Shown here: positions 33,079 to 60,637 of the stretch, piece by piece | Position numbering within the stretch: position 1 is the stretch's first letter | Layout of the letters: each line of letters opens with the position of its first letter | Origin: Cytophagales bacterium | Lineage (GTDB): Bacteria; Bacteroidota; Bacteroidia; Cytophagales; UBA9547 | Assembly: GCA_013297755.1 (NCBI GenBank) | Contig: JAAFIH010000004.1 | Coordinates: forward strand, 1-64,000 | Direction of reading: 5' to 3' | DNA length: 64,000 nt | Translations under genes and position numbers: made by a program | The notes under the pieces: model-generated | Told to the model about the DNA's origin: nothing | Database searches by the model: none | What the model saw: the letters and a program-made list of their open reading frames with translations, nothing else

Positions 33079-36000
33079 ATGAAAAAAGTTTACACTTTGC
33101 TTGCTATCACAATTTCTTTTTTGGTTTCAATAGCCCAAATCCCAACTTCTAATCTATCGCTTTGGCTGAGGGCTGATGCTGGTTTGACAACTTCAAGTGG
33201 GAGTAATATTAATTCTAACTGGCAAGATCAATCTCCAAATGCTATTTCTGTAACTAGACAAGGAACCCCATTATTAATTCAAAATGCTTTGAATGGAAAG
33301 CCAGTTGTTAGATTTCCGAATACTGGAAATTACTTTAGCACTACAAATACAGCAGTTACTAATCTAGCAAATATCACATACTATGCAGTTGGCAAATTTT
33401 CTAATACAAATTCAGATATGTTTTATAAAGATGCTCAATATGGATTATATATTAACTCTTCAAGTACAGCTAGGTTTTATACAAGGGCTTTTGGCTCTAA
33501 TGAATTGATTTATTCAAATCCTAATTTGGTTAATAATTATTTTATATACAGTGGGAGATATAATGGAAGTACTATTACAGGCACATTAAACACAACTGTT
33601 AGTTCTGGTCTAAGTTTTAGTTCTGCTATGCTTAGTGGTGGTACTCTTTTAATTGGTGTTGGCAATAATTGGTTTACAAATGGAGATATTGCAGAACTCA
33701 TCATCTATAACGATGCCTTAAACTCTACCCAACAGCAGCAAGTCTATGATTATCTTTCTTCTAAATACAACATAGGAATCCATCCGAATGCTCCACAAAT
33801 AAGCAATTTTGGGAATTTTGACGCTGCTTTTGATGCATCTTTTTTAGGTACAAAAGTGGCAGCATCAGGCTTTGGCTCACTTGGCGACCAAGTTACTATT
33901 TCTGGTACAAATTTTGCAGCAGTTACCCAACTTTTTGTAAATAATATTTCTATTGCAGGTTTTACAATCAATTCTAATAACAGAATTACTTTTACTTTGC
34001 CAGATGGTTTAAATTACACTGGACAAGATTTTACAGGAAAAATAAAATTAGTCAATAGTTTTGGTCCAGGCATATCTTCACAAGATTTGCAGGTAATTTT
34101 TTCTAACTCTTCGCCTAGTACAGTTATAAATGTGGCTCGTGGCGGTCAGTTTGCCATCGAAGGCACAGATTTGAGTCAAATTACAGCTATTTCAGTAGGT
34201 GGAATTAATTTACCATACATATATAATAGTGTTACCAAAAAAATTATGGTTTCTTTAAATACGCTTGTTGGTATTGGAAATCAAACGGTTAGATTACGAC
34301 AAGGTACAGTTTTAGGAAATAAGGAATACGATTTGCTAGATGCTATAAATGTAGTTTCATCTATCTCTGCACCAACGATCACTTCCATCACTCCACAAGC
34401 AGGAGGTATCAATAGCACTTTTGTGATTAGTGGAACAAATTTTGGGGCAAGTGCTGGAGATAATGTTGTATATATGGGTGCAGTTCAAGCAAATGTAGTT
34501 TCAAACACTTCCACCACTGCTACTGTGCAAGTTCCCACAGGCACAAGTTATGATAATTTGAGTTTACGAAATTTGAATAGTGGCTTGCAGGTCGAGTTTT
34601 CAAAACCTTTCGTAACTACATTTTTAGGTAATAGCAGTTTTGAATTAAATACTTTTTCAAGTCCAACTAGCTTTAATACTGGTTATTATAATGGTTTTTT
34701 TAGTGCTACAGGTGATTTGAATAGTGATGGCAAACCAGAAATTATAACCTCGCATTATAACAATAACATCATTACAATTTTACAAAATGTAGCTTCAAAC
34801 AATACGATTACTTCAACTTCTTTTCAAAATTATTTTATACTTCCATCGACCTCTTCACAAGCTAATCAACTATGTATCAAAGATTTTGATAATGATGGTA
34901 GATTAGATGTTGGTGTTTATTGTATTTCTGGGCAGGTTGATATTTATAAAAACATAAGTAATGGTGGTACACTTTCAGCTTCAAGTTTTGCAACAAAAGT
35001 AACTTTTACAATGCCATTAGGAGGTTATGCTTTTGATGCAGGCGATATTGATGCTGATGGCAAATTAGATTTAGTTGTAGCTGCATTTAGTGCAACCAAC
35101 ACTTTATATATATGTAAAAACCAAACCACCAATAACACTATTGTTGGAAATTCTTTTGCAAACCCGGTTTCGATAAGCTATGGTTCAAACGCTTATTCAT
35201 TTAGAATGAAAATTGTAGATATTGATAATGATAATTTTGCAGATGTGAGTATTGTTAATAAAAATAGTAGCGGATTATCAACTATTTCCATTTTACGAAA
35301 CCTTGCAACAGGTACTATTTTTGGATCTTCATTTGCCACTCCTGTAACATTGAATTTAACAAACACTGCCAACTCAGCTGCACCAGATCCTGCATTAGGC
35401 TTTGCTTGGGCTGATTTTGATAACGATGGAAAATTAGATCTAGTGGCTTCTAACCCAACACAAAACCAAGTTTCTGTTTTTAAAAACAAATCTACAGTAG
35501 GCACAATAAATAACGCATCGTTCAACGAAAGATTTGATTTTCCAACATCATCCAACCCTTATGGTGTTGCAGTTGGTGATATAAATGGAGATGGAAAAGT
35601 TGATATTGCAGTTTCTAGTTATGGTGAAGCAAAGGTTTCTTTGTTAAGAAATCAATCTACAAATGGAACAATTACAAGTGCTAGTTTTGCAAATAAACAA
35701 GATTATGCAACAACAAATGTTTATAATCTTAACCCTATCATAGCCGATTTTGATGGGGATGCTAAACCAGAAATTTCAACTTCTAATTTTTATTTTTCAA
35801 ACTTAATTTTCCGCAACCTCATCACCGACCCAGCTTCTATCACAGGTTTTTCGCCAAGTTCTGGTTTGCCATTGAGTAGAGTTACGCTCACAGGTAGCAA
35901 TTTTGGCGATGTGGCTCAGGTGCGTATGGGTACAATTACAGGTGGAGCTGTATTGGAGCGAAATGCCAATTCCATAGTTGTTCGTATTCCAGCAGGAGCA

Positions 36001-39000
36001 ACCACAAATTTGATTTCGTTGGTTAATAATTCAGGAACACAAGCCACAACATCTAGTAATTTTATAGTAACAGGAGTTACTCCATTGGCTGTAATCACAT
36101 CTGTAAGTCCTATGGCAGCACCTCTTGGAGGGACAGTTTTGGTTGGTGGGAGTGGTTTTGATGCCACGCCAAGTCTGAATTCGATTTGGTTTGGAGCAAC
36201 CAAAATGCCAGTAACCAATGCTACAACCAATCAATTGACAGTTTCTGTAACAGGTGGAGCATCAAGTTCAAAAATATCTTATCAAAATTCATTTGGATTG
36301 AATGAGCAATGGAAATTGCCTTTTGGTTATTCGTTTGGTGGTGGAAATCTGACAAGTGGTTCGTTTACAAATAATGCTTTATTAAATACTGGCTCAACAC
36401 CTTATAATGTGATTTCTCACGATTTGGATGGTGATGGAAAACCAGATCTTATTGCAACAAATTGGAATAATAGCACAAATCAACTATCTATTTATAGAAA
36501 TAATAGCATTAATAACACAATAAATGGAAGTTCGTTTGCTACTGGTTTTGGGTTAAGTGGCTACACTGCTAGTAATTCTTTTCAAACTTCAGTTGGCGAT
36601 TTGGATGGCGATGGCAAACCTGAAATCTTGTTACCATTTTACAATACTGGATTTTTTACCATTTTCAAAAATAATAGTTCCACTACTACTTTAACGGCTA
36701 ATTCATTCACTAAAAACGACATTCAAGTATTGCCAACTGGCTATGGCTCGTATGGCTCTGCCATTGCTGATATTGATAATGATGGGTTTAATGATTTGAT
36801 TTTTAGCTCATATTTAAGTGCTGGTATTTTTATTTATAGAAATTTAGGCAATGGTAGATTAGATGCTTCAGGTTTTCAGTTTACAAATTTTTGGGCTACA
36901 GGTGGAAATCCATCAAAAATTGAAATTTCTGATTTTGATGGAGATGGAAGAAAAGACATAGTTGTTGGAAATACCGCTACTACATATTTATCTGTATTCA
37001 GAAACAATACCTCTATAACAGGAAGTATAAATTTAGCCACAAGAGTAGATTTACAAACATCAAACAATCCCTATGGTGTAACTTTTGCTGATTTAAATTC
37101 AGATGGTAAACCTGAAATAATTTCAACAAATTATAACACAAGTCAAGTTTCTGTATTTCAAAATAATTGTCCACTTACTACCATTACAGCAGCTTCATTT
37201 TTAAGAATGGATTTGTCAAGTACTGCAAATGGAAATCCTTATGGCATACATGTAGGAGATTTGGATGGCGATGGCAAACCAGAAATTGTAGTTACCAATC
37301 AAAGTGTAGCTCAGTATGCTATTTTCAAAAACAATTATTTATCAGGCAATATAACTTCTTCACATTTTTCGAGATTTGATATCAATAATGTTCAATTTCA
37401 ATCAGGCGTAGAAATTGCAGATTTGGATTTAGATGGCAAGCAAGAAATAGTGATGGCAAATACAAATGCCAATACATTACACATTTACAAAAACCAAATT
37501 GGCAATGGCTCAATTCCAACTATTACAGGGTTCACTCCAACCAGTGGTGAAGCATTAACTACGTTTGTAACCGTTTCTGGAAATGGATTTACGAGTGTAA
37601 GTGGCGTTACATTGGGTAATATTCCGGCTGCTTCTTTTTCAGTAATCAATCCCAATACATTAGTTTTAAGAGTTCCAAATACTACCCTTGTTGGAAAAAT
37701 AGGCGTTGCCAATCAGTTTGGATCAGTTGGACTTTCGAGTGCTGATTTTACAGTTACTGGTGCTGCACCAGTACCAAGAATTACAAACATCACTCCTTAT
37801 TCTGCCACATTTGGTACAAATGTGGTGATTACAGGTTCTGGTTTTAACAATACACCTGCTAGTAATTTGGTTCAATTTGGAGCTATGCAAGCATCAGTTA
37901 CTGGTGCAAACACTACTTCTTTAAATGTAAATGTACCCACTGGAGCTACTTTTGAAGATGTGCGTGTAACAAACTTATTATCTGGTTTACAAGGCGAAAG
38001 CTTCAAACCTTTTGTAACTACTTTTCCAAATTCAGGAACAATTACAGGAGCTACTTTTGCACCAAGTGTAGATATTCCAGCTGATTTTAGAGTTTATCAT
38101 ACACTTTTGGCGGATTTGGACAATGATGGTAAAAATGATTTGATTTCTGCAAATTATTGGAGTAATCAAATTTCTGTATTTAGAAATACAGGTACTGGTT
38201 CTAATTTAGCAGCTCAATTTGCAAACCGTCAATCTTTTGCTACTGGCTCTACTGCCTATAAACTTTCAACAGGAGATTTTGACTCTGATGGACGTTTAGA
38301 TGTGATTGTTGTAAATTATGGTGCTGGTTCAGTTTCAGTTTTAAGAAATATATCTTCATTAGGTGGAATTTCTTTTGCTGATAAAGTTGATTTTTTTGTT
38401 GGCACAAACCCAACTTCTGTAGAAATAGCAGATTTAGATAAAGATGGTGCCTTAGATTTTGTAGTTTCTCATCAAAATTCTTTATTTTTTACAGTCTATA
38501 AAAACAATAACATCACAGGAACAATTACATCAAACAGCTTTGGCTCTAGGCTTGATATTCCAAACGACAACAACAGTTATGGACTTGCTGTTGGAGATTT
38601 AGACAAAGATGGGTTGCCAGATATTGCTATTGGGTCTCAAATTAATTCAAACATTAGAATATTTAAAAATATAAGTAGTGGTGGAAATATAAACTTTAAT
38701 TCAAGTGTAAACAGATTGTCGCCTTCCATAACTTATGATATAAAAATAGCAGATATAGATGGAGATAATAACTTAGATATAGTTTCGGCAAGTAATAATA
38801 GTTTTGCAGTTTCAGTGTTTAGGAATAATGGAATTTTAAATACTATTACTGCTTCTTCATTTGCAACTGGAGTAAATTATGATGTAAATTCTGGCGTATT
38901 ATATCTTGCACTTTCTGATATTGATGGCGATGGAAAGGTTGACATTACAGCCACAACAAATGGCATTCAAGATGTATCAGTTTTTAGAAATACAGCAACA

Positions 39001-42000
39001 CCAGGCACAATCGATGCAAGTTCGTTAGCCAATAGAACTATTTTTAAATCAAGTTCGACAAATAACTATATACATACAATTGGTGATGTAGATGGCGATG
39101 GATTGCCTGAAATAATTGTGCCACAATACAATTCAAGTACTATTAATATCTTTAAAAACCTCACTTCCCCAGCTCCCAGCATCACAGGTTTTGCACCCAC
39201 AAGTGGACAAGCAGGTGTGGATAGAGTTACATTGACTGGAACTGCACTTGCAACTGTCAATCGCATTTCGATTGGTGGTGGAATTACCCAAAATATCATT
39301 TCTGCAACCAATAACACACTAGTTTTCAGACTTCCTGCAAGTGCCACAACAAGTCAGATTATGGCTCAAAATGGTTTTGGTATGTCGAGCACATCTACAG
39401 GAACATTTACTATTTCTGCACCATATCCTTACCCAAGTATTTCGGGAATCACCCCAATTTATGCCGCTTCTGGAGCTGCTATTAGCATTTCTGGGCAATA
39501 TTTTGGAACTGGAGCAGGGCAAAATGTAGTGTATTTTGGAGCATCTCAAGGAACAGTAACTGGCTTTTCTGCCAATAGTGTCATTGCTTCTTTGCCAACT
39601 GGTGCTACGTATGATGCTGTAACTTTATTAAACCGCCAAACTTCATTAACAGGAGCCAATTATTTACAAATTCCAAGTACTACATTTACAGGTGCTACTA
39701 CGATTAATGGAAATACGCTGAGCAATAGAATAGATATTTCTACGTCTCAAAGCAGTAGAACTTCATCTGTGGCAGATTTTGATGGGGATGGAAGAAATGA
39801 CATTGTTATTGGACAAAGCAGTCAAGTAATTGTTTTTAGAAATATTTCTACTTCAAATACATTAGCAGGAAGCGGTTCATTTACAAATTCAACTTATTCG
39901 ATTGGAGGCAGCCCAAGAGAAATTATTACAGCTGATATAGATAACGATGGAAGAATAGATATTATAACCTCAAATCAAAATTCGAATTCATTTTCAATAC
40001 TCAAAAACATATCTTCTGGTGCAGGTAATATTGCATTTAGTACTAGAGTTGATGTTCCAACAACTCAATCTTCCACAAATAATGCCTTATCTGTTGCTGA
40101 TATGGATTTAGATGGTTTTATGGATGTAATTTTATATGAAGTTGTAACTGGTGCAAATAGGATTACGATATACAGAAATAGTGGTTCAGTTGGAACAGTT
40201 ACTGCTCAAAATTTTGTGGAACAATATTCACTTCCGTTGGGCACAAATTCTATTTTTGATATAGAAATTGCAGATTTGAATGGCGATAATTTTCCTGAGA
40301 TTGCAGTTGGATTCCAGACCACCTCAAATAATGTATATATTTATAAGAACAATAGCCAAGCTGGATTTTTAAATATGGCTTTGCCAACCATTTTTTCAAC
40401 TGGAATTGGTTCTATTTATAATTTAACTGCTGCTGATTTTGATAATGATGGCAAACGAGACTTAGCGATTGGTCATTACTGGGGAACATTTACAGATTTG
40501 AAGTTTTTTAGAAATACTTCTACCAATAATTCTATTTCAGGTACAATTTTTGATTTTAATCATGGTTCAGCTATTTATTTTAATACTGCGAATGCTGGAG
40601 ATATAGATGGCGATGGACGAATTGATTTAGTGGTAACAGATTCATATAGCCCAGGAGCATTAAAGATTTTTAGAAATACTTCTACTGCAATTGGTATAAA
40701 TCAAAATACCTTTGCACAAAGTGTGAGTTATCCTCTATTTGGTAATAATGGAGATGGAATTGTACATATTGCTGATTTGACATCTGATGGTAGACCTGAG
40801 ATTATTCAATTTAGTACTTCAAATAATTTATCTATTTGGAGAAACCAAATTTCAGAAATACCAACCATTACAGGAATTGCTCCAAATCCAGCTGTGGCTG
40901 GAGTTTCGCAACTTACGATTACGGGAACAGGACTTCAAAATACTTTTTCAGCTTTGTTTGCCAATGGAGCTAGTGTAACATCTATTTCTGGTTCAACTCC
41001 TACAAGTGTAGTCGTTCGCCTGCCAGCGTTGGCACAAACAGGTGTGGTTTCCATCACAAATATTACAGGTGGTTTGGCTACATCTCCACAAGTTTTAACG
41101 ATTACAGCTTTCCCTTATCCTACTATTACTTCTATCATTCCTAATCGTGCTGAAGTTGGCAACGCCATTGTGATCAATGGAAATAATTTTGACCCCACAC
41201 CAAGCAACAATACTGTTTATTTTGGAGGAGTAAAAGCTGCCATTACTTCAGCTACCATTTCGACTTTGGGAGTAAATGTGCCTCAAAGTGCTGATTATGA
41301 TAATATTAAAGTTATAAATAATGTCAATAAATTGACTTCTGAATTTGGTTTTGATTTCACGCCTACTTTTACAGGAATGACTACTATTTTGAGCAGCATT
41401 TATGCTACTAAGGTTGATCCAGCCTTATTTTCTAATTCTGATAGAGTGATGACAGGAGATTTGGATGGAGATGGAAAATTAGATTTGGTTACAGGTTCTA
41501 GTTCAAGCTCTTTTGTTTCAATTTATAGAAATACAAGCAATGCAGGTACATGGACAGGCACATCTTTAGCCACCAGAATTGATTTGAATATTGGGTTTTC
41601 TAGCATTAGAGATATTGAATTAGCTGATTTTGATTTAGATGGCAGATTAGATATAGTTGTACTTGAAGGTGGTTCAAATAATATAATTGTTCTTAAAAAC
41701 AACTCTTCTGTTGGTAATATAGTTTTTTCAGCAACACCAAGTGCCACATTACCAGCTGGAGCAAGTGTGTATTCTTTGGCCGTGGCTGATTTTGATTTAG
41801 ATGGCAATACAGACATAGCAGCAGGTGGATATTTTTCAGCTAATATATTCATTTTCAAGAATTTAGGTATTGTCAATACCATTACCAATAGTTCTTTTGC
41901 TAGTCCAGTTTCATTTAATTATTCTTGGGGATATTCTGCAGATTTAGATGCTGGCGACTTAAATGGCGATGGCTATCCTGATTTGGTTTCTGCCAATGGA

Positions 42001-45000
42001 ATTGGGTATAACAATTTTACTATTTTTGAAAATAGAGGTTTAAGAGGTTCTTTAGCTTTTAGAACGCCAGTTGATTATAACACAACACAGCCTTTTGGTG
42101 TAAAAATTGCTGATTTAGATAATGATGGTAGATTAGATATTTTGGTTTCAAATATCAATACAAATATTTCAATCTATAAAAACAATCTTGTCAATACTAC
42201 TATCACTACTACATCTTTTGGAAATGCAGGGGTTGGCGTTACATACTCAGCTAATTCTGCAAACAGAGGTGTAGATGTAGCAGATATGGATGGCGATGGT
42301 TTGGCTGATATTTTGGTTTCTAATTTCAACAATCCTGGTTCGGTTTCAATGTATAGAAATAGGGGAGGATCAATTTCTGGCACTTCCTTTTCTCCAAAAG
42401 TAGATGTAACGACAGGTATTTCTCCTTATGGCATCCAAGCAGTAGATATGGATGGCGATGGACGAACTGATATTGTGAGTTCAAATACCTCTTCTAACAA
42501 CTTGTCCATTATTAGAAATAACTTATCTACTTTCCCAACTGCGACAGGTTTTAACCCAACTACTGCCACTGCATTTAATATTATAAGCATTGCAGGTTTT
42601 AATCTAAATTCTATTAATCAAGTACGTTTTGGTACAGGTTCTACAGCTTTAATTACCATTTTGGGAGCAACATCTATTTTGGCTCAAGTTCCGTTGAATG
42701 CCACATCTGGGCAAGTGATTGTAACCAATTCGCAAGGCGTGAGTTCTACTGCTCCAGGTGTGTTTACCATGATTCCTGTAGCATTCCCAACTATTACAGG
42801 AATTAATCCACTTTCTGCTACTTTGGGTGACGCCATTCAAATCAATGGAAATAATTTTAGTACTATTTTGGGTAATAACCAAGTGTTTTTGGGTGCAGTT
42901 GTGGCTACAGTTACTTCTGCTGCTGTAAACCAACTTACCGTAACTGTTCCACCAAGTGCTGATTATGGATTGATTTCAGTTCTCAATCGTGAATCTAATT
43001 TACAAGCCAATTATTCTATTCCTTTACGCAACACATTTGGAGGCTCTGGCACAATTATTGGAAGTTCGTTTGCCAATGCAGTGAATTTTACTGGAGTATT
43101 AAATTCGCCTTATTTTTCATTTCAAAAAGATTTGAATGGCGATGGCAAACCAGAGATTTTGGTTGGAAATTCAACAGGTAGCTATATTACCATTTTTGTA
43201 AATAATGCTTCTGGAAATACAGTTACTGGAACTACATTTTCATCGTTTAATATTTCTATGCCATTTGGATATTCTATACACATCAATGCTGATGATTTAG
43301 ATAATGATGGCAAACCTGACTTAGTAGTAGTAGATTATACCAATGGTAGAGTAGCTGTTTTGAAAAATAATTATGCTGGTGGTGCATTAACTGCTGCTGC
43401 ATTTGGAACACCATTTTTGTTCACAACTGGCACGAATCCACATACTGCTGCTATTGGAGATGTAGATTTTGATGGATTTAATGATATAGTTATTGCTAAT
43501 GCTACAAGCAACAATATTTCTGTATTTAAAAATAATGCTACACTTGGAGTTATTAATGCCAATTCCTTTGCAGCTAAACAAGATTTTACAGTTGCAACAA
43601 CTCCTGTAGAAGTTTTGCTTTCTGATTTAGATAACGATGGTAGATTAGATATTGTATCTTCAAATGAAAGTGGAAATTCATTGTCAATTCTAAAAAATAT
43701 TACTTCAAGAGGAATTGTTAATGCTGGTTCATTTGCATCAGTAGTCAATTATACAACCCCATATACTGGATATGGATTAGGAATTGGCGATTTTAATAAT
43801 GATGGAAAACCAGATATTTTATCTGCTTCTCGCACAAATGCCTTCGTAATGCTTTTCCAAAATAATACTACAGGAAATACCATTACAGGTACATCTTTTA
43901 GCAGAACAGATATAGCAGCACCTGTTTATAGTTATAGAAATGCAAAAATTGCTGATTTTGATGGCGATGGAAAAAATGATTTTACTGTTCCTACAGGCTT
44001 TAATCAAATAAGTGTGTATCGCAATGTATCTACTGGTGTTGGGTTAAATGTAAATAGTTTTGCTGCATCTGTAAATTATGCCACACAAAACTGGCCTTGG
44101 GGATTGTCAGTAGGAGATTTAGATGGCGATTTCAAACCTGAAATAGTGTCTGTAAATCAAAATTCGAGTTCAATTTCTGTTTTCAAAAACCTACAAACAA
44201 GTGCAAATCCTGTAATTACTTCCTTCAATCCTTCTTCACTTTTGCAAGGACAACCGTTTACCGTAAATGGATCAAACTTTGCAGGAATTACAAGTTTACA
44301 AGTGAATGGCGTAAATTCTCCATTCTCTATTATCAATGCCTCATTAATAGTAGCAACTGTTACTGGAAATGGAACTACTGGCTTGATTTCTGTGAATGGA
44401 TTTAATGGTTCAGCTGTTTCGGCAACTAACTTAATTGTTATTCCAATACTTATTCCAACCATTACAGGCTTTAATCCAACTTCAGCCTTGCCAAATGCAG
44501 TAGTTTCGGTTTTTGGAAATAATTTTGTAAGCATCACTGGAATTTCTATCAGTGGAGTAAATTCTCAATTCTCCATTGTCAATTCTCAATTAATTACAAT
44601 TACAGTTCCAAGTGCTATCACAGGAAAGGCTTCTATCATTAATTATAGTGGACAAACGCAATCATTATCAAATCTACATATCATTACCAACGCTGGAGCT
44701 GATTTTGGTAGAATGGCATTTTTTGATGGGATTAATAATTATGTAACTATTCCAAATGCTGGAAATACACTGGAAAGTACCAATTTTACATTCGAAGCCA
44801 TGATAAAACGCAGCAGAATTTCTGCTCCAAATGGTCAAGATAGATTATTGATGTCCTCAAATTTTAATGGATTAGGAGTTTATTTTGAAAACAATCGTTT
44901 GACTTTTGGAAAAATTGGTGTGAGCCAAGTATCAACCAATAATCCTATTTCAGATACTGTTTGGCACCATGTGGCTGTGAGCTATAATGGCTCTGTAGCT

Positions 45001-48000
45001 AAATTTTATTATGATGGTATTTTTGATAGCCAACAAGCCTTTACTCAAACTTTTAATTCATCAAATGGGACTTATTCAATAGGTTCTAGAAGTTCATCAG
45101 AGTATTTTCAGGGTAGAATAGATGAAGTTAGAATATGGAATGTTGAACGAACCATTACTGGAATCCAAGCCAATAAATGTGCTGAGATTAATGGCACAGA
45201 ACCTAATTTGGTGGCATATTATCGTTTTAATGAAAATGCAAATTCTACTTCTGTGACTGATGCTTCGCCAAGTGGTTTGCATGCTACTGCATTGAACTTT
45301 ACTTTGCCAGCCGAAAGACCAATTTCTACTGCCAAATGCTACCAAGCTGCCACAGTTTCGGGACTTTCTCCAAATCCTATTGTAGGAAATGGTGCAAATA
45401 TTTTAACCCTAACTGGAACTGGATTTACGGATATTTTGGCTGTTCGTTTAGGAAATTTGAACTTACCCAATTTTACAGTTTCTGGAAATACGATTGCAGT
45501 TTTGATTCCAACTACAGTTACCAACACCAATATAATTGTTGTTAATGGAACTGAAACCTCAACTTCAACTGGAATTTTGACAGTTACAGGATTGATTCCA
45601 ACTTTTACAAGTATTACTCCAAATGCTGAACGCAGAGGTAGGACAATCACCTTATCAGGAACTAATTATAATAACATATCTTTCTTTGGCTTAGGAAATA
45701 CTAATTCTCAATTCTCAATTCTCAATTCTCAATTAATTATTGCAACTGTTCCAGGAAATGCCTCTATAGGAGCAGGAGTATTGACTATCACCAATTTAGC
45801 AGGCAATGGTTTTAGCAATTTTACGGTTTCGGGAACGCCAAGTCCAAGTGTTACAGGTGTTTCGCCAGCTGCCGCCATCAATGGAAATACGATTTCAGTT
45901 TCGTTAGATGAAATCGAGTTTTTGCAAAGTCCAATCACGATTGGTGGAACAACTTTAACTAATTTTACCCTTTCAGGAAATAATTTAAGTTTTGAAGTTC
46001 CACTAAGTGCCACAACTGGTCATGTGCGTGTACGTTCGCTTTATGGAGGAGTTTCGCCAACTGTTGCGGGTTCATTATTAACTATTTTACCTCCACCAAG
46101 TATTTCGGATTTTGGAGCTGTTGCCACAGGTGCTAAATTGGCTTCTTCTGGTTGTGGTGGTTTAGGCGAGTTGGTTACGATTACAGGAAATGGATTTTCG
46201 GCTGGTACTACAGATGTTACCATGAATAATTTCAATGTACTCAATCCAACTGTTACATCCTTGAATATGATAGTGTTGCGAGTACCAGATTTATCAGGTT
46301 CGCCTGCCCAAAACTTGACTGGTAAATTCAAAATTACCACCCCAGCAGGTAGCATAACTTCTATTCAAAACATGGTAGCTCGTTTTTGTGCCGCTACGCC
46401 AACCACAACTTTAGGTATTAAAAATGGCGATGATTTTGAAGTTACTGGAAATGATATGATAAATGTATCAGCTGTTTCGGTGGCAGGTATTTCAGCATCT
46501 TTCAATACCAATGCAAACAAATTAACTGTAATTGTGCCCAACAATGCACCTTCAGGATTTGTGCCTGTAAGCATTGCTCAAGGTTCATATTTATTTACAT
46601 TCCCTTTTAATTTCTTTATTTTCCCAAAACCTACGATTTCGGGCATTTTGGGTTCGCCAGCATTGATTGGTTCAACCATTAGTATTACTGGTTTTGCATT
46701 AACAAGCACCTCTGGCATTGCATTTAATGGAGCAAATCAAACGGTGGTAAGCAATATGAATGACAACTTGGTAACTTTAGTTGTACCCGTTGGGGCACAA
46801 AATGGAAATTTGAGTTTGACTGCCGCAGGTGGTACTGCAGTAAGTCCAACGCCATTTATTGTAGCTCCAAGCATAAGTGGCGTAAATCCAACAGCAGCTG
46901 GAGTAGGTCAATCGGTATCGCTTACGGGTTCTGGTTTGGCTGCGGTTTCGCAAGTGTTTATCAATGGAATGTTGGCTTCTATTTCATCAAAAACAGCCAC
47001 TAGAATAATTATAAGTGTGCCAAATGGAGCAACTTCTGGCGATTTAACGGCTCGAATTACTGGTTATACCACTCCTGGCATATTCTTTAGAGTGATTCCT
47101 GCACCAACCATTACAGATATTCAACCAGCAAGTGCCATTGCAGGTACGATTTTGACGATTTCTGGAACGGGTTTTTCAGCTTCCGGCATCAATACTTTAT
47201 CATTTAATAATACAGGAAGTGCCACAGGCACAATTATTGGCGATAATTTAATGTTAGTTGAAGTTGTAGAAAATGCAAGTTCAGGATATATCACTCTATC
47301 AAATTTAGGTGGAAATACTACAAGCAGTATTCAGTTCTTGGCTCAACCATCGCTTACAGGCAATTTCAATCCACTTGGCATGGGAGCTGGAGCAACCATT
47401 ACCATTTTTGGCAAAAACTTGTTCAATCCCACTTTAGTAACTTTTGATAATAATATTGCTACTTCATTTAGCTATCAGTCGCCTACACATATCATTGCTG
47501 TGATTCCAAATATCAGTTCACTTACTCCATTGCAAGTAAAAGTAACTACAGATGGTGGAACATCAAATGTTGTGCTTTATACCATTGCTGGTGCTCCAAG
47601 TATCTCAAGTATTACTCCAGGAAGTGGAAAAATGGGAGATGTGATTACTGTAAATGGTGATAATTTCTCATTAACTTCAAATACTGTTTTAGTGAATGGG
47701 GCAAATGCTAATCATGTTGCGTTGAGCAAAACAGTAATGCTGGTGACTGTTCCCGGAAATTGTACCCAAGCCACAGGAAATATTCAAGTTCAAAATGTGG
47801 GAAATCAATTTTTGTCAGCTCCTAATAATTTTGCCAATAGTCCATCAAACTTTGCTGTGATTCCATCTTTTACTGCAATTCGTAATATTTGCGATTTGAG
47901 TTCAGTAACTTCGGCTGTGCAAGGTGCTTTGTTACGCATAGAAGGAGCAAACTTTATTACTGGAAATACACAAGTATTTTTCAATACTGGTTTAGGAAAC

Positions 48001-51000
48001 ATCAGTACAGGTTTTGGAATTTGTAGTGGACAATTTACCTCGTTTTCAAATGGATTAGCCTTTGTTTGGGTGCCAAATACTGCTACTACAGGAAATGTAA
48101 CCGTAAAAACCAATGGAGGTACATCTTCTCCTATTTTCTTGACCATTATTCCTCCTCCTATTATTTCAGGATTTAGTCCTTTGAGTGGAGTGGCAGGAAC
48201 TGTTATAACCATTTCAGGTTCAGAATTTTATACCGTTTCTGGCATAGCTGTCAATAATATAGCTGCACCATTTACGCAATTAAGCCAAACGAGTATAGTA
48301 GCCACTATCACAGGCACTATGTCGAAAGGGAAAGTTTCTATGACCGCAACAGGAGGCTCGGCAAGTAGCAATGTAGATTTTGCTCCAACGCCAGTCATTA
48401 CATCTATTTCGCCTACGGAAGCTCCTGTAAATTCATTTATTGATTTAATAGGTACAAATCTTTATGGGGCTTCGAACATCAACTTTGCAGGAAATAATGC
48501 CACAAATTGGACAGATGGACTCACTAGTACTTCCGTAAGAGTTCCAATCAATGCAGTTTCTGGTATCATTTCTTATACCAATGCTGGGGGAACAGCTGTT
48601 TCGCCAATTGCATTTACCGTTTCTACCATTTTAGGAATGAGTACCAATACAGGAGTAGCAGGAACATTGATTACGCTAACTGGAAATGGTTTGACTTCAG
48701 CATCTAATTTTAGCTTTAATTCAACTTCTCAATTTCCAGTAATTACCACAGTTCTTGGTGGAGTTGTAGTGAGTGTGCCAGGTGCAGCTACTTTTGGAGC
48801 CATTACTTTACATTTTCCAAATGGGGGAAGTACTTCTTTTGGTCAATTTAGACCTACACCAGTCATAACTTCTATTTCTCCAAATACACATGGCACAGAT
48901 CAATTTGTGCAAATCAATGGTACAAATGTTTGGGATATGATTGGGGCAGATTTTGGTGGCGTAACGTCAAATAATTTAGGATTTAATACAGGTTCTAATG
49001 CTGCATTGATTGTAAGTAGAAACAATGTAAAAGTGCCAACCAATGGATTGACAGGTCTAGTTACGATTACAGTTGCAGGTGGTGGCATTGCCACAAGTCC
49101 AAGCACATTTACGGTAATTTCTATTTCAGGAGTGATGCCAGGCACAGTTTTAGGTGGCGATATGATTACAATCTCAGGTGCAAATTTGGATAATGCTTCT
49201 GAAGTGAATATTGGCGGATTAGCTTCTCAATTCTCAATTCTCAATTCTCAATTAATCACAGCAACTGTTCCAAATAACATTTCCAATGCCCAAATTATCG
49301 TTTTCAAAGGTGGTGGATTTAATGATAGTTTCTCGTTGAATTTACCAAATGCGAGTATCTCAGGTATTACGCCAAGTTCTGGTCCAATTGGAACTATCAT
49401 TACTATAAATGGAGCTAATTTCACTGCTGCTCGTGGGGTTCAATTATACAATCCTTTATATACGCCATTTGCTTATGCTATTAATTATCAAGTAATTAGC
49501 CCAACACGCATGGTGGCTACAGTTACAGGAAATGGCATTTCTGGAAATGTGCGAGTGATTGGACAAAATAATACTATTGCTTCAGGCCCATTGTTTACTA
49601 TGCCTCCAGTATTGAACACTTTGCCAAATCCAGGCGTGTTACCAGCTGGACAAACTGTAGTTCTCAATGGTGGAAATCTCACAGCTCCTACTACCATTAA
49701 CGTAGGTGGAATAAATGTACCTGTTACTAATTATGGTGCAAATAGCATTTCGTTTGTAATGCCAACACTTGTTGGAAATAATATTTTGACGGTTGGAAAT
49801 AGTGCTGGTGTGAGTACTGTGAATTTTGGATTTTTATCAATTACTTCAATTAGTACAACATCAGGCTTTGCTGGAAACACAGTTTCTATCGTTGGAACTG
49901 GCTTCTTCAACGTTGGAAACACAACAATCAGCGTTGGAAACACAAAATTCAACGCTGTAACTTCAATATTCAGCGTTGAAAGTCCAACAATCATCGTTGC
50001 AACTACCCCCGCCAACGCTGGAAACGGTAAAATCAGCGTTGAAGTCGGAGGTTACAGCGTTGAAAGTCCTGTTTCTTTCTTTCCAAGACCTGTAATTACT
50101 GGTTTTACAGTCATCAATGGAGTTGATGCCACAACAGCTCGATTAGGAAGCACTGTTTCAGTAATAGGAACAAACTTAAATAATGTAAATTCTATTACCT
50201 TAGGAGGAAGTACCAATGCCTATTCATTTACACTAGGTTGCACTACTGGCAACGATGGATTGAGTTTATTTCCACTTTGTGTTCCAAATAATGCCAATTC
50301 AGGTATCATTTTTGCAAGCAATGGAACATTTACAGCCACATTTGCAGGGTTCAATTTCTTAGCTCCACCAGGCACTATTTCAGGTGTGGCGGCTGTACCA
50401 GGCAATCAAGTAACGATCAATGGAGCAAACTTAAATTCAGTTACAGGTGTGGGTTTTGATGGAAATGAAGCCTTAGCTTTCACGCAACTTTCGCCAACGC
50501 AACTGACGGCTATTGTGCCATTTACTGCCACACTTTCTGGTACAACACAAGTACGTACACTAGGTGGAAACACAAGTAGTTCTTATACAGCTCCGCCAAT
50601 TATTACTGCCCTTTCAAAAACACAAGGTGCCGTTGGTATTGGTTTAAATGTGTCTGCAATGAATATTTCTGGCATTAACCAAGTGATTTTCCCTGTTGGA
50701 ATTACAGCCACAGGTACTAATTTTTCAAATAATATTTCGGTAAATGTGCCAGCTGGAGCTACCAATGGATTTGTTGCTATCAGAAACGAAGCTGGTTTGG
50801 GAACAAGTCCTATCAATTTTGATGTATTGCCCATGCCAACCATTTCGGGTATTTCGCCAAGCAATGGGGGAGAAGGAACTACAGTATTGATTAATGGTAC
50901 AAACTTAGATTTGATTACAGGAGTATTCTTTGGAAATGGCTTACAATCAGCCACTTTCACGGTTATTTCGCCAACCCAAATCCAAGCCACTGCCCCAACA

Positions 51001-54000
51001 GGAGTTTTGACAGGAGCTATACATATTACAAATAATGCCATTTATCCAACATCTATTATTTCGCCAACTACCTTTATTGGAAGTCCAGTATTTACTTCTG
51101 TTATCAATACATCAAATGGCAATGCACCATATATAGGTAGGGCAGGAGAGAGCATCCAAATCAATGGAGCGAATTTTACATCTCCATTCAAAGTTTTCTT
51201 CAATGGCACACAAGCTATTACGACCAATTTTGTAAATGCTTCGCAAGTTACAGCTGTTGTGCCTGTGGGTGCAACTTCAGGTTTGATTAATGTTTCTACC
51301 ACAGGTGGAGATTTCCAAACCAACGAATCGTTTTCGGTAGTCAATTTTGTAAATGCTCCAGTAGCAATCATTACCAATTCATGTGCAGGACAAACATTTA
51401 GAGTAAATTATACGGTTTCTGGTATTTTCCCTGCTGATAATGTTTTCTATGTAGATATCATGAATGGCGCAACTCTTGCAGTCACAAGTGTTGGAACTCG
51501 TACAGCCAATAATTCTGGATTTGTTTCAGCTATAATTCCTTCTGGATTAGCAGGAAATTATACTGCAAGAATTAGGGCAAGTTCTGCTCTTAAAAATTAT
51601 GGTTTAACTTCAACTGGTTCAAATACATTTGCCATTACCAATATCAATAATTGGTTGGGCTATACCAATAATTGGAGTACGTTTACCAACTGGGGCTGTG
51701 GCGTTTTACCTACTTCTCAATCTTATGTAACTATTGATAATTCGCCAATTGGGGGCAATCAGCCTACTATTTTTGGCTCAGCCACAGCAGGAACAGTAGA
51801 AGTAAATGGTGGACAACTGACAATGACTTCTGCTGGTATTCTTACTTTTTTTAATGATTTAAAATTAAGTTCAACGGCTGCTTACCAAGCACATCCAACC
51901 AGTTTTACATTGATTAATGGAGCCAATGCCACTGTAGTTTCTGCTGTTGGACATGCCGAAGTTGGAAATATCACCATTGGCACAAGTTCTAAACTCACTT
52001 TGGGTTCGCCATTAAAAGTAAAAGGCAGTTTTGTAAATAATGTAAACACATCTTACTATGCTAGTTATTATTATGGTTGGTATTTTATTTATGGATTCAA
52101 TTCTAATGGACATGCTGTAACTGTAGAAGGCTCTAATTTCCAAACTGTTGGTAATCCTGGATTTTATGCCACATTATTTGATGAATTGGTATTGAATAAT
52201 AATACCAGTGGTGCTGGAGTGGCTTTGGCTGGACCTGTACAGGTAAAATGTAAATTGATTAATTATGGTATTTTCAATGCTAATAATTTCTTGACAGAAT
52301 TTGTGAATGGACCTTGCTCTCCACAACTGATTGCCCAAAGTCCAAACACTACATTTGATAATATTGTGTTTAATAATACCTTGACAGCTGTAAATATCAC
52401 TCGTCCTATTCGTGTGCGTGGAAACTTTACTAGAGCAACTGGAGCTTTAGGTGTAACTATGCCAAGTGGTTCTGCCATAGAATTTGTGGGTACATCTGCC
52501 CCACAAATGATAGAATCTGCTGGACAGCCTTTGCAGTTCAATGATTTTAAAATTGATAATCCTTTAGGTGTTACATTGAGTACAACGCCAGGATCTGATT
52601 TGCAAATCTCAGGTAATTTTATCAATAATGGTTCATTTACAGATGCCACAAATACAGTTTCATTCTCAGGTGCAAACGTAACCATTGGAGGAACAGGAGA
52701 ATTTAATTTGAATAAAGTAGAATTAACTCCTACATCTACGGTTACTCTCAAACGCTCTGTCAGAGTACGTGGATTTTTCAAATCAAAAGGCGGTTTTGAT
52801 GCTGGTGGACAGACCATCACATTTAACGCTCCATCAGGTGTGCAAACCATAGAAAGTACAAACCCTGCCCGATTATCAGGCATAGAAATTGTTTCTACAT
52901 CTGTAGTTACAACATCTTCAAATATCAATATCAATGGAAATTTTGATAATGCAGGCAAGTTTGTAGCCACTGGAAATACTGGATTTGATGGCACTTCGCT
53001 CAAAACCATTGCAGGTACTGGATTATATGAATTTGCCAATGTGTCTGTAACCAATGCAGGTGTCAATATTGCCTCATCAGTGGCCATTTCTGGAGATTTA
53101 ACCACCAACGGAGCCTTAACCTCAGCTACCAATACAGAATTGACCTTTGCTGGAACTAACACCAACATCAGTGGAAACACAGAACCGCAACTAGCCAACA
53201 TCAACATCAATACATCTGCTGGAGTAACTTTAAATAGAGGTGTAAGAGTTCGTGGAAACTTCAAATCTAAAGGAACTTTGACTCCAAACAACCAAACGGT
53301 TACTTTTGATGCCAACGGTGGCCAAACAATCGAAAGCCCAAAATTAGTATCATTTTCTGGGGTCAATATTACACCAACAGCCCAAGTGATTACCTCAGCT
53401 CCTTTGGCTTTGGATGGTAGCTTAACCAATGCAGGACTATATTCAACCAATCAACCTACAGTATTGAATGGTTCTGGGGCTCAAACCATTGCAGGTACTG
53501 GTTCGTTTAATTTCCAAAGTATTTCTAATAACAATTCTTCAGCTACCGATTCAGTAAAAGTGTTAGCACCAATTCAATTATCAGGGAATCTTGCCAATAA
53601 TGGAAAATTATTTTCAAGCTCTGATATTCAATTTAATGGTTCAACACAAACCATTTCTGGAACGGTAGAACCTGTATTGACAAACTTGGAGTTAGCACCT
53701 AGTGCTTCTGTGGCATTGACAAGAAGCGTAAGAGTACGTGGAAATTTCAAAAATAATTCTGCTACCAATGGACTACAAGCATCTGCACCTGTAACATTGG
53801 AAGGGAACTCTGTCCAAAGTATTACTGGTACAGCTTCAACAATATTTGCAGATTTGAATATGAACAACAATGCAGGCATTGTGGCTACCCAACCATTAGA
53901 AGTGAGTAAGATTAATATTCAAAAACGTGGAAGAGTAGTCGTTCCAAATGCAAGTCCTTTGGTGGTAAGTTCTACTGCCAATAATGCTATTACTCGCACA

Positions 54001-55864: not shown

Positions 55865-58800
55865 ATGAAAAGTTTATTAAATATAATTTTGAAATTATTA
55901 CTGAATACTAAAAAAATATTTTATTTCAAGAATATTTTATTGATTTCTTTTTTGCTATTTACAATACAAGTGAAGAGTATTAACTTACCTACTATTGGCA
56001 CAATTACCAATGACAAAATGCTTATCAATAATGATAACAATTTTATAATTGTTACAGGAATTTCAGATGGCGATATAGCTCTTAATCAAACTGTAACCAT
56101 GACAGCTGTATCTAGTAATACATCTATTTTGTCTGTTACTTCAGTAAATTATACAAACCCAGATGGATTTGCTGTGATTAAAATTAAAGAATTTGGAGTT
56201 TCTGGGAGTGTCACGCTTACAATTACAGCAACTGATGCTGATGGACCAAAAGTGAGTAACTTTAGTATTGCTATTGGTGATTTTTATCAAAAAGGTGTTC
56301 GATTTCAAATTCATGATTTAGTTTATTGGCAAAACTTACTTCCGTTTAACGATACTCCATTGCTTGATTCTGTGATAGCATCTGTAAACTCACCGACAGA
56401 TAACGAAATTTGGAATAGATTGCCACTATCAGTTGGTCTCGCAAGTAGCAATGATAAGGATGATTTCTGCACAATGGCTTATAAAGGATATATTAAACCT
56501 ACAATAAGTGGAACATATACGTTTAGTTATGAAGGGTTTGATGATTCTAAGTTTCAAATTTTTTCTTCAGCAGACTATGATCAAATTCCAATAGGTAGTT
56601 TTTATAGAAGTACTTTAATCAATCAAAATAGCTCGACAACCACAACTTCTGTTAACTTAACAGCTGGTCAGACTTACTTGTTTTATGCTACCAATTATAA
56701 ATTTTTAGACAATTATTTTAAAATAAATTGGACATATCCTGGCCAGAACTTGGTTACTCCAATGAGTGGCAATCAAATCTTGCCTTATTTATTTAATTCA
56801 AATCCATTAAATGAACCACTAAATTTACAAGTTGTTAGGTATAGTAAAGATGCAGTGGAATTAAGATGGAACTCAGTTACTAATGCTGGTATAAATTATA
56901 AAGTATATTTGAATGATAAGGTTTATTTTACTACAACAAATACTATTATTATTACTTCTTTAACTTCAAATACATTTTATTCTGCAGCTGTTTCTATATT
57001 GAATGAAAACAAAGTTGAGTCATTACCATCTATCGTAGTAAATTTCAACACACCAACAATAGAAAGTATTTTACCTAATCCACCTACAATTTCAGCAAGT
57101 ATATTAGATGATGTTGCTATTGTTATTACATTTTCTGGTGCAGCTGATCCAAGTGGTATTTATGGGTATAATATTTATGTAAATAATCAAATTAATAAAC
57201 AAATCTACCCTGCTAATTCAACTACTATACTTGGCTTATTACCTTCTACCAATTATAATATCCAAATAGAATCTGTGGATGGCAACTATAATGTGTCTGC
57301 AAAAAGTAATAATTATGTGATTACAACCAATACTTTTGACTATACATCAACACCTACAGGAGCAAAAAAAGCGAAAGTTACTTTTTTTCAAAATTATATT
57401 GCTAGAAACGAAGGAATTGGAATTAACAATGAATGGGATAATGGCAATTTGTATACAACCTCTATGCTCGGAATCCATCAAGATCTGAAACCCTCAAATG
57501 TTGTATTAGGAACATTAAATGCAAATTCAAAAAGTTTTGCAAATGATATGATTGGAAATAAGCCTACAACATATGGAAAATATTTGAATTTTGCAAATAG
57601 TATAGGGGCATATTGTACCATTTCTATTGGCACAAGCATAGGTAAAGATTGGAGAGATAACTCTACATTGACAGCTTTGAATTTCTTAGAATATATAGCT
57701 GGAAATTCAAGCACAACTTATGGTGCAATAAGGGCATCTGAGGGGTTTTCTAGTTCACTTCTTACTATTTCTAAAGGTTTAATAATCAACTTAGGTACAG
57801 AAGTATGGGGTGGTGCTTCAACTTTAGGAGGTGCAAATCATAATGCTGATGGTTTCGATAATTATGCAGTATATGGACCTTGGGCGAGGTCGATGGCAAG
57901 GGCTTTTAAATCTTCGCCCTATTATGATTCTACAAAAATTAAAATTGCATACTCTGGAAGAGAAATATCTTTAGCAGATAGTTATGGGCTTACACAGACT
58001 TTATATACGTTGCAAAATGGAGAAGTAGCAGGCTCTGATAAAGTTGATGGGATGTCTGTCAGTGGTTATCAACAACCAAATTATGTTGAATCTAACGGTC
58101 CATTATGGGATCAAACAGTAACGGGAACATGGATAGACCAAGAGGCTAGGTTAAAACAATTAGAAAAAAACATTTCACAAATAGGTATTACAAAAGATTA
58201 TATAGAAACTATGACAGGATACATAAAGCCAATTTACATTTATGAAGGGAATAATATAAATTTTCAAAATTCTAAACCAGGTCAGCCTATGCAAATGGTA
58301 GATTTTTATAGCGAAATGATAATCAACGGGGTTTCAAATCCCAATATTTTTACTTTACAAGGTGGGCTATGGGGTATTTTGCAAGATAATTATACCAAAA
58401 AATTGCCTCTATATGATATGATAAAGTTATATAATACTCATACAAAAGGGAATGTTTTACAAAGTCAATTTCAAACAAGTCAATACATAAAGGATTACAG
58501 AAATAATGAAATTAATATTGATCCAGTAAATGTGAAATGTTATCAAAATGGAAATAAATATGCTATTTTATTAATGAGTAGAGATTTTAAAAACGATTAT
58601 GCTGTAGAATTAAATATGCCTAATGGTTCATACTCTGCTACTGCTAGTAGATTTGAAATTTCTACAACAACAGAAAATTCTCAAATACAAGTAATGACAA
58701 CAGTAAATATGAATTTTAGTGCTACATCTGTAGTGCATGTGCCAAAATATGCCATGGTTGTAATCACATTTACGGGGCCTCAAATAAACTTACTTCCTGT

Positions 58801-60637
58801 TGCTCTTGGTTACAGCCCATACAAAAGACCTACTTCAGTTAGTGTAAGTATAAACAATGGGATTGGCGAACAAACTAATTTCATTTCAAATGAAGTAATT
58901 ACTGTAAACGCCAATTTCTTACCTTCAAATTCATCAAATCAAAAAACAAACTGGCAAGTATTAAAAAATAATAATGAGCAAATAACCTTACAATATTTTA
59001 ATAAAAACCTAGTAATGAGTTTTTCAGGTGCATCGGTAAATACGGTAAATGGTTTAAGTGTTTTTACTGTTATAGGTTCTCAATTTGAAAATCCAAATTT
59101 AAGAATTACAAAAATTATAAATGTTACCAAAATTTTTGAAGAAGGTTGTTTACCACAAATAGTTATACAGCCACAAAATAAATCTTATATTCCAGGCTTT
59201 CCTACCTCACTTATGGTTTCTGCTACTGGTACAAATCTTACTTATATATGGAGTAATGGAGCTACAACACCTGAGTTTTCTACTACAATAGTTGGTACTT
59301 ATCAAGTTACTGTTGTGGGAGCTTGTGGTTCCAAAATAAGCCAACCAGTAGAAGTTACACTTTCGACAAACAGATATATTTATATACCATCCACCATAAA
59401 TTTGTCGATTGGAGACACCCTTTTTGTTGGGGTACAAACCCAAAGCAACGACCCACTTGTATATAGTTTAAGCGATAACTCGCTGGCCGAGCTCTCGTCA
59501 AACAGGCTTGTTGGGCTCAAGAGTGGGTTTGCCACAGTTTCTGTTTTTCAACCTGCAACCGCTAATTCTAGTGCATTACCTACGGTTACAATTCCTCTTA
59601 ATATTACTTCAACTAGAGGTGTCAATTTCGATATTTCAGGTAGCAAATTTATACCATTTGGCAAGGTTATTACATATAGTCAGCCTTTTGTTGCAGGATA
59701 TACCTACACATGGTCGTTTAGTGGAACAGGTGTACTTATTGTGCCAGGCACTGATAAAACCTCTAATTTTAAAATCATTTTCTTAGATGGTGCAACTGCT
59801 GGTAACATAATTAGCATAGTAAAAGACCAAAATCAAAATATAGTTTCAAGTAAAACATTTAGGGTCGAACCATTGACAGATTCTGAATTAGAATTAACCA
59901 AAAACTTACCCAAAATTGATTGCCCAATTGAGGTACTAGATTGCAAAAGTGCCTACATTACATCTGTAAAAATGGGAACACTTTCTAACCTCAACACAGG
60001 TTGCAGCCGAGCAGGCTTTGGCGATTATACTCTGGGTCTAAAACTCGATTCTTTGATGATGGGCGATGCCTACGACCTCAACCTAGAATCGAAAACCAGC
60101 GATGGCAAAAGTGCCTTTTTTGCAGTATGGATAGATTACAACAACAATGGAAAATTTACCGACCAAGACGATTTTGTGGCAGCCTCGTTTGAAAACGCCA
60201 ATGCCTTCGAAATCAAAAACATCATCATCAAAAACCAAATAGAGTACGAAGGCCCACGTAGATTGCGTGTAAGCATGCGAGCAGATGCCGCCATTGCCCC
60301 CAACGACCCTTGTGCCAAAACAGGGGGCTCTGGAGAAACCGAAGACTACCTAGTTTTCATTCGCAAACCCGATGATTTGCAGGCCGCCTCACTCGTAACC
60401 CCCAACAACGATGGCAAAAACGATAGACTTATCATCAGAGGAATAAACGTAAAAGAGCCCAACAAACTTACCATCATGGATAGATATGGCGAAATGATTT
60501 ACGAAACCACCGACTACAAAAACGACTGGGAAGGCACCAACAACCAAAAAAAATCAGTCATGGATGGCACCTATTATTACTTTTTTGTAAATGGCAAAAA
60601 AACAATCAGCGGCTTTGTAGAATTAAGAAGAAAATAA
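55865..60637 (+). CDS. Secreted multidomain protein: PA14-like, Fn3, glycoside-hydrolase-like, GEVED, type B T9SS tail
   Basis: The protein has 1590 residues. An extended signal sequence occupies about residues 1-40. A PA14-like domain follows a cadherin-like strand region (about 142-315), then two fibronectin III domains (about 317-400 and 403-493). Residues about 500-1000 resemble a clan A glycoside hydrolase: NLGTEVWGG (Glu646) as acid/base and IYIYEGNN (Glu794) as nucleophile, 148 residues apart, close to the spacing in the 5932-residue protein. An Ig-like domain (about 1096-1180), a GEVED domain (about 1365-1500, WIDYNNNGKF, ETEDYLVFI) and the type B sorting domain (about 1505-1590, TPNNDGKNDRL, MDRYGEMIYE) end the protein. 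It is probably surface-exposed and polysaccharide-binding or -degrading. The last roughly 640 bases are far richer in G+C than the middle, suggesting a mosaic origin. Confidence 0.87.
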   Translation: MKSLLNIILKLLLNTKKIFYFKNILLISFLLFTIQVKSINLPTIGTITNDKMLINNDNNFIIVTGISDGDIALNQTVTMTAVSSNTSILSVTSVNYTNPDGFAVIKIKEFGVSGSVTLTITATDADGPKVSNFSIAIGDFYQKGVRFQIHDLVYWQNLLPFNDTPLLDSVIASVNSPTDNEIWNRLPLSVGLASSNDKDDFCTMAYKGYIKPTISGTYTFSYEGFDDSKFQIFSSADYDQIPIGSFYRSTLINQNSSTTTTSVNLTAGQTYLFYATNYKFLDNYFKINWTYPGQNLVTPMSGNQILPYLFNSNPLNEPLNLQVVRYSKDAVELRWNSVTNAGINYKVYLNDKVYFTTTNTIIITSLTSNTFYSAAVSILNENKVESLPSIVVNFNTPTIESILPNPPTISASILDDVAIVITFSGAADPSGIYGYNIYVNNQINKQIYPANSTTILGLLPSTNYNIQIESVDGNYNVSAKSNNYVITTNTFDYTSTPTGAKKAKVTFFQNYIARNEGIGINNEWDNGNLYTTSMLGIHQDLKPSNVVLGTLNANSKSFANDMIGNKPTTYGKYLNFANSIGAYCTISIGTSIGKDWRDNSTLTALNFLEYIAGNSSTTYGAIRASEGFSSSLLTISKGLIINLGTEVWGGASTLGGANHNADGFDNYAVYGPWARSMARAFKSSPYYDSTKIKIAYSGREISLADSYGLTQTLYTLQNGEVAGSDKVDGMSVSGYQQPNYVESNGPLWDQTVTGTWIDQEARLKQLEKNISQIGITKDYIETMTGYIKPIYIYEGNNINFQNSKPGQPMQMVDFYSEMIINGVSNPNIFTLQGGLWGILQDNYTKKLPLYDMIKLYNTHTKGNVLQSQFQTSQYIKDYRNNEINIDPVNVKCYQNGNKYAILLMSRDFKNDYAVELNMPNGSYSATASRFEISTTTENSQIQVMTTVNMNFSATSVVHVPKYAMVVITFTGPQINLLPVALGYSPYKRPTSVSVSINNGIGEQTNFISNEVITVNANFLPSNSSNQKTNWQVLKNNNEQITLQYFNKNLVMSFSGASVNTVNGLSVFTVIGSQFENPNLRITKIINVTKIFEEGCLPQIVIQPQNKSYIPGFPTSLMVSATGTNLTYIWSNGATTPEFSTTIVGTYQVTVVGACGSKISQPVEVTLSTNRYIYIPSTINLSIGDTLFVGVQTQSNDPLVYSLSDNSLAELSSNRLVGLKSGFATVSVFQPATANSSALPTVTIPLNITSTRGVNFDISGSKFIPFGKVITYSQPFVAGYTYTWSFSGTGVLIVPGTDKTSNFKIIFLDGATAGNIISIVKDQNQNIVSSKTFRVEPLTDSELELTKNLPKIDCPIEVLDCKSAYITSVKMGTLSNLNTGCSRAGFGDYTLGLKLDSLMMGDAYDLNLESKTSDGKSAFFAVWIDYNNNGKFTDQDDFVAASFENANAFEIKNIIIKNQIEYEGPRRLRVSMRADAAIAPNDPCAKTGGSGETEDYLVFIRKPDDLQAASLVTPNNDGKNDRLIIRGINVKEPNKLTIMDRYGEMIYETTDYKNDWEGTNNQKKSVMDGTYYYFFVNGKKTISGFVELRRK

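Follow-up and report, generated by a model that had tools for sequence, protein, structure and literature searches.

The 64,000-nucleotide stretch of a Cytophagales bacterium genome analysed here (assembly GCA_013297755.1, contig JAAFIH010000004.1, positions 1 to 64,000; referred to hereafter as the window) contains a giant, uninterrupted open reading frame at 33079..55017 (7312 aa; forward strand, as for every feature of this protein given below). We read its product as probably a surface-attached, multivalent adhesin that leaves the cell through the type IX secretion system (T9SS) and is built around six seven-bladed propellers of the VCBS/FG-GAP_3 type, each with two TIG domains as spacers, in the region 34610–44211. 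In the arrangement that we propose, a calcium ion in the loop between strands A and B would pin each blade on one face of the propeller, and the opposite face (the D-A and B-C loops) would be free to diverge and to bind ligands, which may be glycans or surface proteins. The TIG pairs would space the heads, and a further run of 24 TIG-like domains, anchored C-terminally, would lift them off the cell; the outcome would be a multivalent, possibly multi-specific adhesin with a presumed location at the cell surface.

The propeller array is defined in the first place by its calcium loops. The pattern D-x-[DNT]-x-[DN]-[GNFA] finds 42 DxDxDG-type loops from residue 546 to residue 3680. They fall into six blocks, each with exactly seven, and are spaced 52–65 residues within a block and 225–231 residues across block borders. 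This agrees with the first-pass annotation of the DNA, which had counted the same six blocks; the count is confirmed. The strict DxDxDG form is present in 30/42 loops and Dx[DN]xDG in 36/42 (the other six read DIDNDN, DFDGDA, DIDGDN, DLNGDN, DLTSDG and DLDGDF), and all 42 have an acidic residue (Asp or Glu) at position 9; the residues that would coordinate calcium are thus in place. Over 500 shuffles of the 3367-residue region, the broad pattern occurred 3.1 times on average (maximum 10) and the strict pattern 0.07 times (maximum 1), which rejects a chance origin of the loop count; the remaining 3945 residues of the giant protein contain three broad and no strict matches. A profile hidden Markov model (HMM) built from the 42 blades here and 42 of the orthologue described below returns the same 6 × 7 arrangement, a check that is partly circular in that both sets trained it. 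Independently of this profile, Pfam FG-GAP_3 (PF13517) and FG-GAP match all three stretches covering the region, FG-GAP_3 scoring 207, 246 and 295 bits against a cut-off of 26.9. The first loops of successive blocks start 1707, 1692, 1662, 1683 and 1671 nt apart; the period of 1.66–1.69 kb originally given for five units is correct for four of them, the first being 1.71 kb.

Between the blocks lie TIG pairs, as had been proposed: the in-house HMMs give three TIG domains, six repeats of seven blades plus two TIG domains, a 218-residue gap holding a Laminin-G (LamG) domain, and 24 more TIG domains. Several of these 39 TIG matches are weak, with E > 0.005 in three (0.05, 0.0051 and 0.01). Propeller ends were set by hand (each running from 20 residues ahead of its first loop up to where the TIG match starts), and the units are 554–569 aa long (the end of the sixth likewise set by hand). 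All propellers were called by loop pattern and blade HMM, and TIG pairs by Pfam and the in-house HMM (pair 6 by the in-house HMM). Propeller 1, which Pfam FG-GAP_3 also matches, spans 34654..35823 (loops at 34714, 34882, 35044, 35218, 35413, 35578 and 35746) and is followed by TIG pair 1 at 35824..36309; propeller 2 spans 36361..37506 (36421, 36598, 36769, 36931, 37090, 37258 and 37420), with TIG pair 2 at 37507..38022. Propeller 3, for which there is also an AlphaFold2 model and a comparison with the PDB, spans 38053..39165 (38113, 38275, 38431, 38596, 38752, 38917 and 39085), with TIG pair 3, present in the same model, at 39166..39678; propeller 4 spans 39715..40851 (39775, 39934, 40099, 40273, 40435, 40600 and 40774), with TIG pair 4 at 40852..41364, both also seen in a two-unit model. 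Propeller 5 spans 41398..42525 (41458, 41626, 41788, 41956, 42112, 42283 and 42445), with TIG pair 5 at 42526..43017, and propeller 6 spans 43069..44199 (43129, 43294, 43459, 43624, 43789, 43954 and 44116), with TIG pair 6 at 44200..44688.

The structure of unit 3 was predicted with AlphaFold2, with unit 3 as query in an alignment of twelve units, six from this protein and six from that of the congener (predicted local distance difference test, pLDDT, 88.2; predicted template modelling score, pTM, 0.75). The model has a single strand at residues 28–31, then seven A-B-C(-D) blades, the last with three strands only, followed by two TIG domains at ~398–476 and 484–549. From this strand list, the N-terminal strand is predicted to complete the last blade in a velcro closure. 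The loops begin at unit residues 43, 97, 149, 204, 256, 311 and 367, each directly after an A strand. In a second model, of units 3 and 4 together (six-row alignment; pLDDT 77.7, pTM 0.45), the seven blades recur in unit 4 and 14/14 loops directly follow A strands. The predicted architecture of units 3 and 4 is therefore one of four-stranded blades whose A-B loop carries DxDxDG, and the loop pattern extends it to 42/42 loops. The first-pass annotation had held that each block closes as a single propeller and had named blade context of the loops as a test: closure is predicted confidently for unit 3 and moderately for unit 4, and the blade count of units 1, 2, 5 and 6 comes from sequence; every loop in the two modelled units sits in the A-B turn.

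When the unit 3 model was compared with the PDB by Foldseek, the top rows included chains of integrins, the BBSome and MET as well as KICSTOR subunits. On re-alignment, aldos-2-ulose dehydratase scored Z 33.7, and ADAM22–LGI1 chains, integrin alpha-IIb, alpha-V and alpha-6 and others scored Z 31–34; the values for alpha-IIb and alpha-V (Z 31–32) bear out the suggested likeness to the integrin alpha propeller. In a profile search by sequence, the top matches of solved structure were cartilage acidic protein 1 (E 2.2e-19), a secreted esterase and integrin alpha-V, with PVL lower (E 9e-7). The rank of the dehydratase could be taken to mean that the propellers are catalytic or carbohydrate-processing, as in that enzyme or RGL11; we consider this very improbable, in that a shared fold shows no function and no catalytic domain scored above the Pfam cut-off in the stretches scanned, a search at the level of domains.

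Probing 39 genomes with unit 2 (own genome included) identified one clear orthologue, in a genome of the same genus (G001). This protein of 7315 aa is 67% identical over its whole length (unit 2 match, 65%) and also carries 42 loops as 6 × 7, one of which, DIDGDR, fell outside the first pattern and was added on inspection, with one chance match in a block removed. An assembly artefact is unlikely, the independent genome giving the same 6 × 7. Among 10 family genomes, full-length unit arrays occur in these two only; the third genome of the genus (G002, an assembly in 380 contigs) shows no such array, and a separate search of genome contigs found one weak relative (25% identity) in a Bacteroidetes metagenome-assembled genome record. 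When 12 window genes were compared by tblastn with 32 kb of the 90-kb contig from the congener, the giant gene alone was matched, the other 11 having no match there.

Orthologous units 1–6 are 51, 64, 63, 55, 52 and 71% identical, against 27–36% (typically ~31%) for different units compared with each other. In a FastTree phylogeny of 48 propellers each pair from the two congeners groups together, five at support 1.0 and the propeller 1 pair at 0.60 (many deeper nodes are poorly supported). This one-to-one pairing indicates that the array of six is older than the species split and that its units were not homogenised. Between units, blades that share a position are 30.9% alike, compared with 28.6% for blades at different positions (a difference reached by 1/5000 permutations), which fits duplication of whole units. 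Propeller–TIG–TIG modules would have been duplicated entire before the species split and would have evolved separately since; with so little in common, the six propellers would amount to six different heads.

The divergence between the orthologues is concentrated on one side of the propeller. The geometry of an antiparallel four-stranded blade places the A-B loop together with the C-D loop on one face, and B-C together with D-A on the other. Loop identity between the two proteins is 82% for A-B (the calcium loop) and 62% for C-D, against 34% for D-A and 32% for B-C, with strands A, B, C and D at 49, 49, 61 and 58%; the first Asp of the calcium loop is identical in 42/42. The C-D loop is better kept than D-A plus B-C in 35/42 blades and worse in 7 (one-sided sign test, p 7.5e-6, with blades treated as independent). 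At the level of domains, propellers are less alike than their TIG pairs in five units (propeller/TIG-pair identity 43/76, 59/75, 58/73, 45/70 and 69/72%), unit 4 being the exception (55 vs 52%). The one-sided pattern suggests a diversifying binding face, of which it would be expected, and would equally be expected of relaxed constraint. A stronger version of the adhesin reading, in which the six propellers are distinct receptor heads with a constant calcium face and a fast-diversifying D-A/B-C face, such that one protein would read several ligands at once, is possible but rather doubtful.

Several points weigh against the adhesin reading, and against the face pattern and the duplication history in particular. 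The face pattern is significant in the pair of congeners only. Two other, more distant pairs, probably not all orthologous, tend in that direction short of significance, with 15 blades against 7 and one tie (37% identical overall, 25 loops found, p 0.07) and 9 against 5 (48% identical overall, 14 loops, p 0.21). The former pair is no real replicate: its B-C loops (35%) are no less conserved than its C-D loops (36%), and strands A and B (24–25%) are as low as D-A (24%). Four-fold sites differ at 56.8% between the orthologues and are near saturation, which makes positive selection inseparable from relaxed constraint. The orthologues known are two only, the protein here and that of the congener, and for only 7/15 unit pairs does aligning the blades in register do better than the other six cyclic shifts. 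The fungal PVL lectin and tachylectin-2 belong to the same supercluster (PMC8023676), and PVL is a weak sequence match; unlike them, the propellers here have the GW sugar motif of PVL/tachylectin-type D-A loops in 0/42 blades. Calcium binding, ligand binding and adhesion are, moreover, functions that we infer from sequence and predicted fold.

Fast divergence of one face over a kept calcium base would also suit a decoy or coat, in which grazers, phages or host defences, and not ligands, would be the reason for variation among the heads, and the free variation of unit number among relatives (below) points the same way. By itself, however, such a role accounts neither for the LamG domain nor for the fact that six distinct units are kept one-to-one in the two species, and we judge it unlikely. 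The first-pass annotation had instead envisaged a calcium-stiffened rod, the propellers and TIG pairs forming a rigid, in-line stalk that gives reach rather than binding. Regular unit length, retention of six units in the congener and conservation of all 42 calcium loops, first Asp included, are what such a rod would lead one to expect, but the models speak against it: with velcro closure both ends of a propeller lie in the same blade, from which the disc would hang sideways from the chain, and the TIG–propeller linker (residues 552–576 of the two-unit model) has pLDDT < 50, the mutual arrangement of units being predicted with low confidence (pTM 0.45). A pure spacer, in addition, gives no reason for propellers to diverge beyond TIG domains in 5/6 units. 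The rod is accordingly an improbable account, and it is more likely, as predicted from the models, that the TIG domains make a string with the propellers hanging from it than that the propellers form in-line segments.

A survey of relatives indicates that the number of blades is not special. The unit profile matched 38/390 genomes of the order (E ≤ 1e-60), 13/395 of the class (1e-90) and 9/395 of the phylum (1e-100), with some genomes, the query genome among them, appearing at two or more ranks and at most three candidates scored per genome. Beyond the two congeners, regions were fetched for 15/38, 5/13 and 5/9 of these, hand-picked mostly for high scores or long frames and hence a non-random sample. 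Two frames of two and three blades (one from the own genome) were dropped, giving 36 frames with at least four blades from 27 genomes, including the protein here, its orthologue and other frames of the own genome. These hold 93 blade blocks, with exactly seven blades in 76, one to six in 17 (several of them fragments, weak matches or in frames cut by the stretch end) and above seven in none; leaving out the protein here and its orthologue, the figure is 64/81. Seven blades being the rule, the strict 6 × 7 arrangement that had been singled out at first is no stronger sign of design than six ordinary propellers.

Unit number, which had been marked for checking in relatives, is six in both congeners and free to vary further out, where surveyed frames have one to six propellers and spacers of 0–12 TIG-like matches. 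One genome (G872) has five propellers, two (G622 and G745) have four each, and another (G254) has five seven-bladed propellers and one six-bladed (four and two by a stricter count). A genome of another family (G089) has six units, with 7, 7, 7, 6, 7 and 7 blades and separated by TIG pairs, in a 6915-aa frame that reaches the end of its contig (L061 with L062; G089:C3:44001-70935). These units are 41–56% identical among themselves and 27–37% identical to those here, and form one clade (support 0.93); the sequence after the array differs by eye. As the units are mutually closest, this array arose by an amplification of its own or was homogenised afterwards. One whole blade is missing from the fourth unit, with normal spacing to the neighbours.

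Outside the array, the giant protein begins with a probable Sec signal peptide of ~20 residues (33079..33138), plausible by eye from the translation, and three N-terminal TIG domains (33868..34614; in-house TIG HMM, the middle one marginal at E 0.05), of which Pfam TIG matches two stretches on the N-terminal 502 aa. After the array come a Laminin-G/ConA-like lectin domain (44725..45153; Pfam Laminin_G_3, E 2e-22) and the 24 further TIG-like domains, probably a stalk (45340..51345; in-house TIG HMM matches of varying strength; Pfam TIG, E 3.6e-66 over 44779–50178). Ahead of the sorting domain, 51400–54700 is repetitive by eye, with a recurring RSVRVRGNFK-like motif, and is perhaps a beta-solenoid; 51001–53700 scanned alone gave no Pfam match above cut-off. 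The protein ends in a T9SS type A sorting domain (54778..55011; Pfam Por_Secre_tail, E 1.4e-13, 51.4 bits against a cut-off of 27; NCBIfam TIGR04183, E 2.7e-10, 40.1 bits against 23), which marks it by profile as type A cargo. The sorting domain of the adhesin SprB of Flavobacterium johnsoniae is, by contrast, of type B. Type B-like domains are found elsewhere in the window: a second giant ORF (2079–19877, 5932 aa) ends in one that, at 32 bits, falls short of the 35-bit cut-off, and a large protein at 55865–60637 has one that exceeds it at 47.6 bits. A PorP/SprF-family T9SS membrane protein is encoded at 62346–63290, 1.7 kb after the latter cargo gene, and is a possible anchor partner. The T9SS is described as confined to Bacteroidetes (PMC7906972), which points to this phylum as the source of the DNA.

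Short DNA repeats lie within the TIG-coding sequence, as tandem 7-base units (AATTCTC) at 44560–44591 (imperfect), 45703–45734 and 49224–49253, encoding a strand SQFSI(L/V)NSQLI. A change of one copy shifts the frame, and slippage could in this way switch the giant protein off; the orthologue gene has no such 7-base repeat. A 21-base form of the repeat has 34 overlapping matches in the own genome and none for a reversed control. Elsewhere, the intergenic stretch 60662–61078 contains three tandem repeats one after another, of 121, 7 and 22 bases.

Among described proteins, the nearest kind is the VCBS core group (Pereira and Lupas 2021, PMC8023676), prokaryotic proteins that carry a signal sequence and in which a chain may hold several propellers, mostly along with Ig-like domains. 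The giant protein shares these traits, the signal sequence as a probable one, and the DxDxDG A-B loops of VCBS (FG-GAP_3, PF13517), and differs from that account, in the sections drawn on here, in having six propellers strictly alternating with TIG pairs in a 7312-aa chain. Bacterial integrin-type propellers have seven repeats, with a calcium motif commoner and more regular than in integrins, and two tandem sets of seven have been reported (Chouhan et al. 2011, PMC3192720), against six sets spaced by TIG pairs here; that paper confines its bacterial proteins to the cytoplasm, in contrast to the T9SS sorting domain of the giant protein. Continuing amplification of propellers has been described (Pereira et al. 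2022, PMC9218822). The integrin alpha head is alike in having a seven-bladed propeller followed by an Ig-like domain, and unlike in sequence (12–16% identity for the rows listed), in having calcium loops in three or four blades against seven here, and in not being repeated six times in one chain; Pfam scans of the whole protein gave propeller families, TIG, LamG and the sorting domain, with no integrin alpha Ig (thigh/calf) domain. SprB (6497 aa) is likewise a giant, T9SS-dependent Bacteroidota surface adhesin (PMC9870892), the type A sorting domain here setting the two apart. A six-fold propeller–TIG array was not found in print within a limited literature search (propellers, T9SS, adhesins and gliding).

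The giant protein is a large, orderly member of the known VCBS multi-propeller kind: its fold and multi-propeller habit are already described, and the six-fold array and one-face divergence are new details. It offers a clean, conserved example of the giant surface proteins of Bacteroidota in which calcium-loop propellers are strung on TIG spacers. Six paralogous heads, an orthologue and a six-bladed relative together make a ready set for probing VCBS ligands and the tolerance of seven-blade closure. Were the tentative view of six distinct receptor heads true, the protein would represent a scaffold in bacteria that pairs a constant with a variable face, made from integrin-like domains and extended by module duplication.

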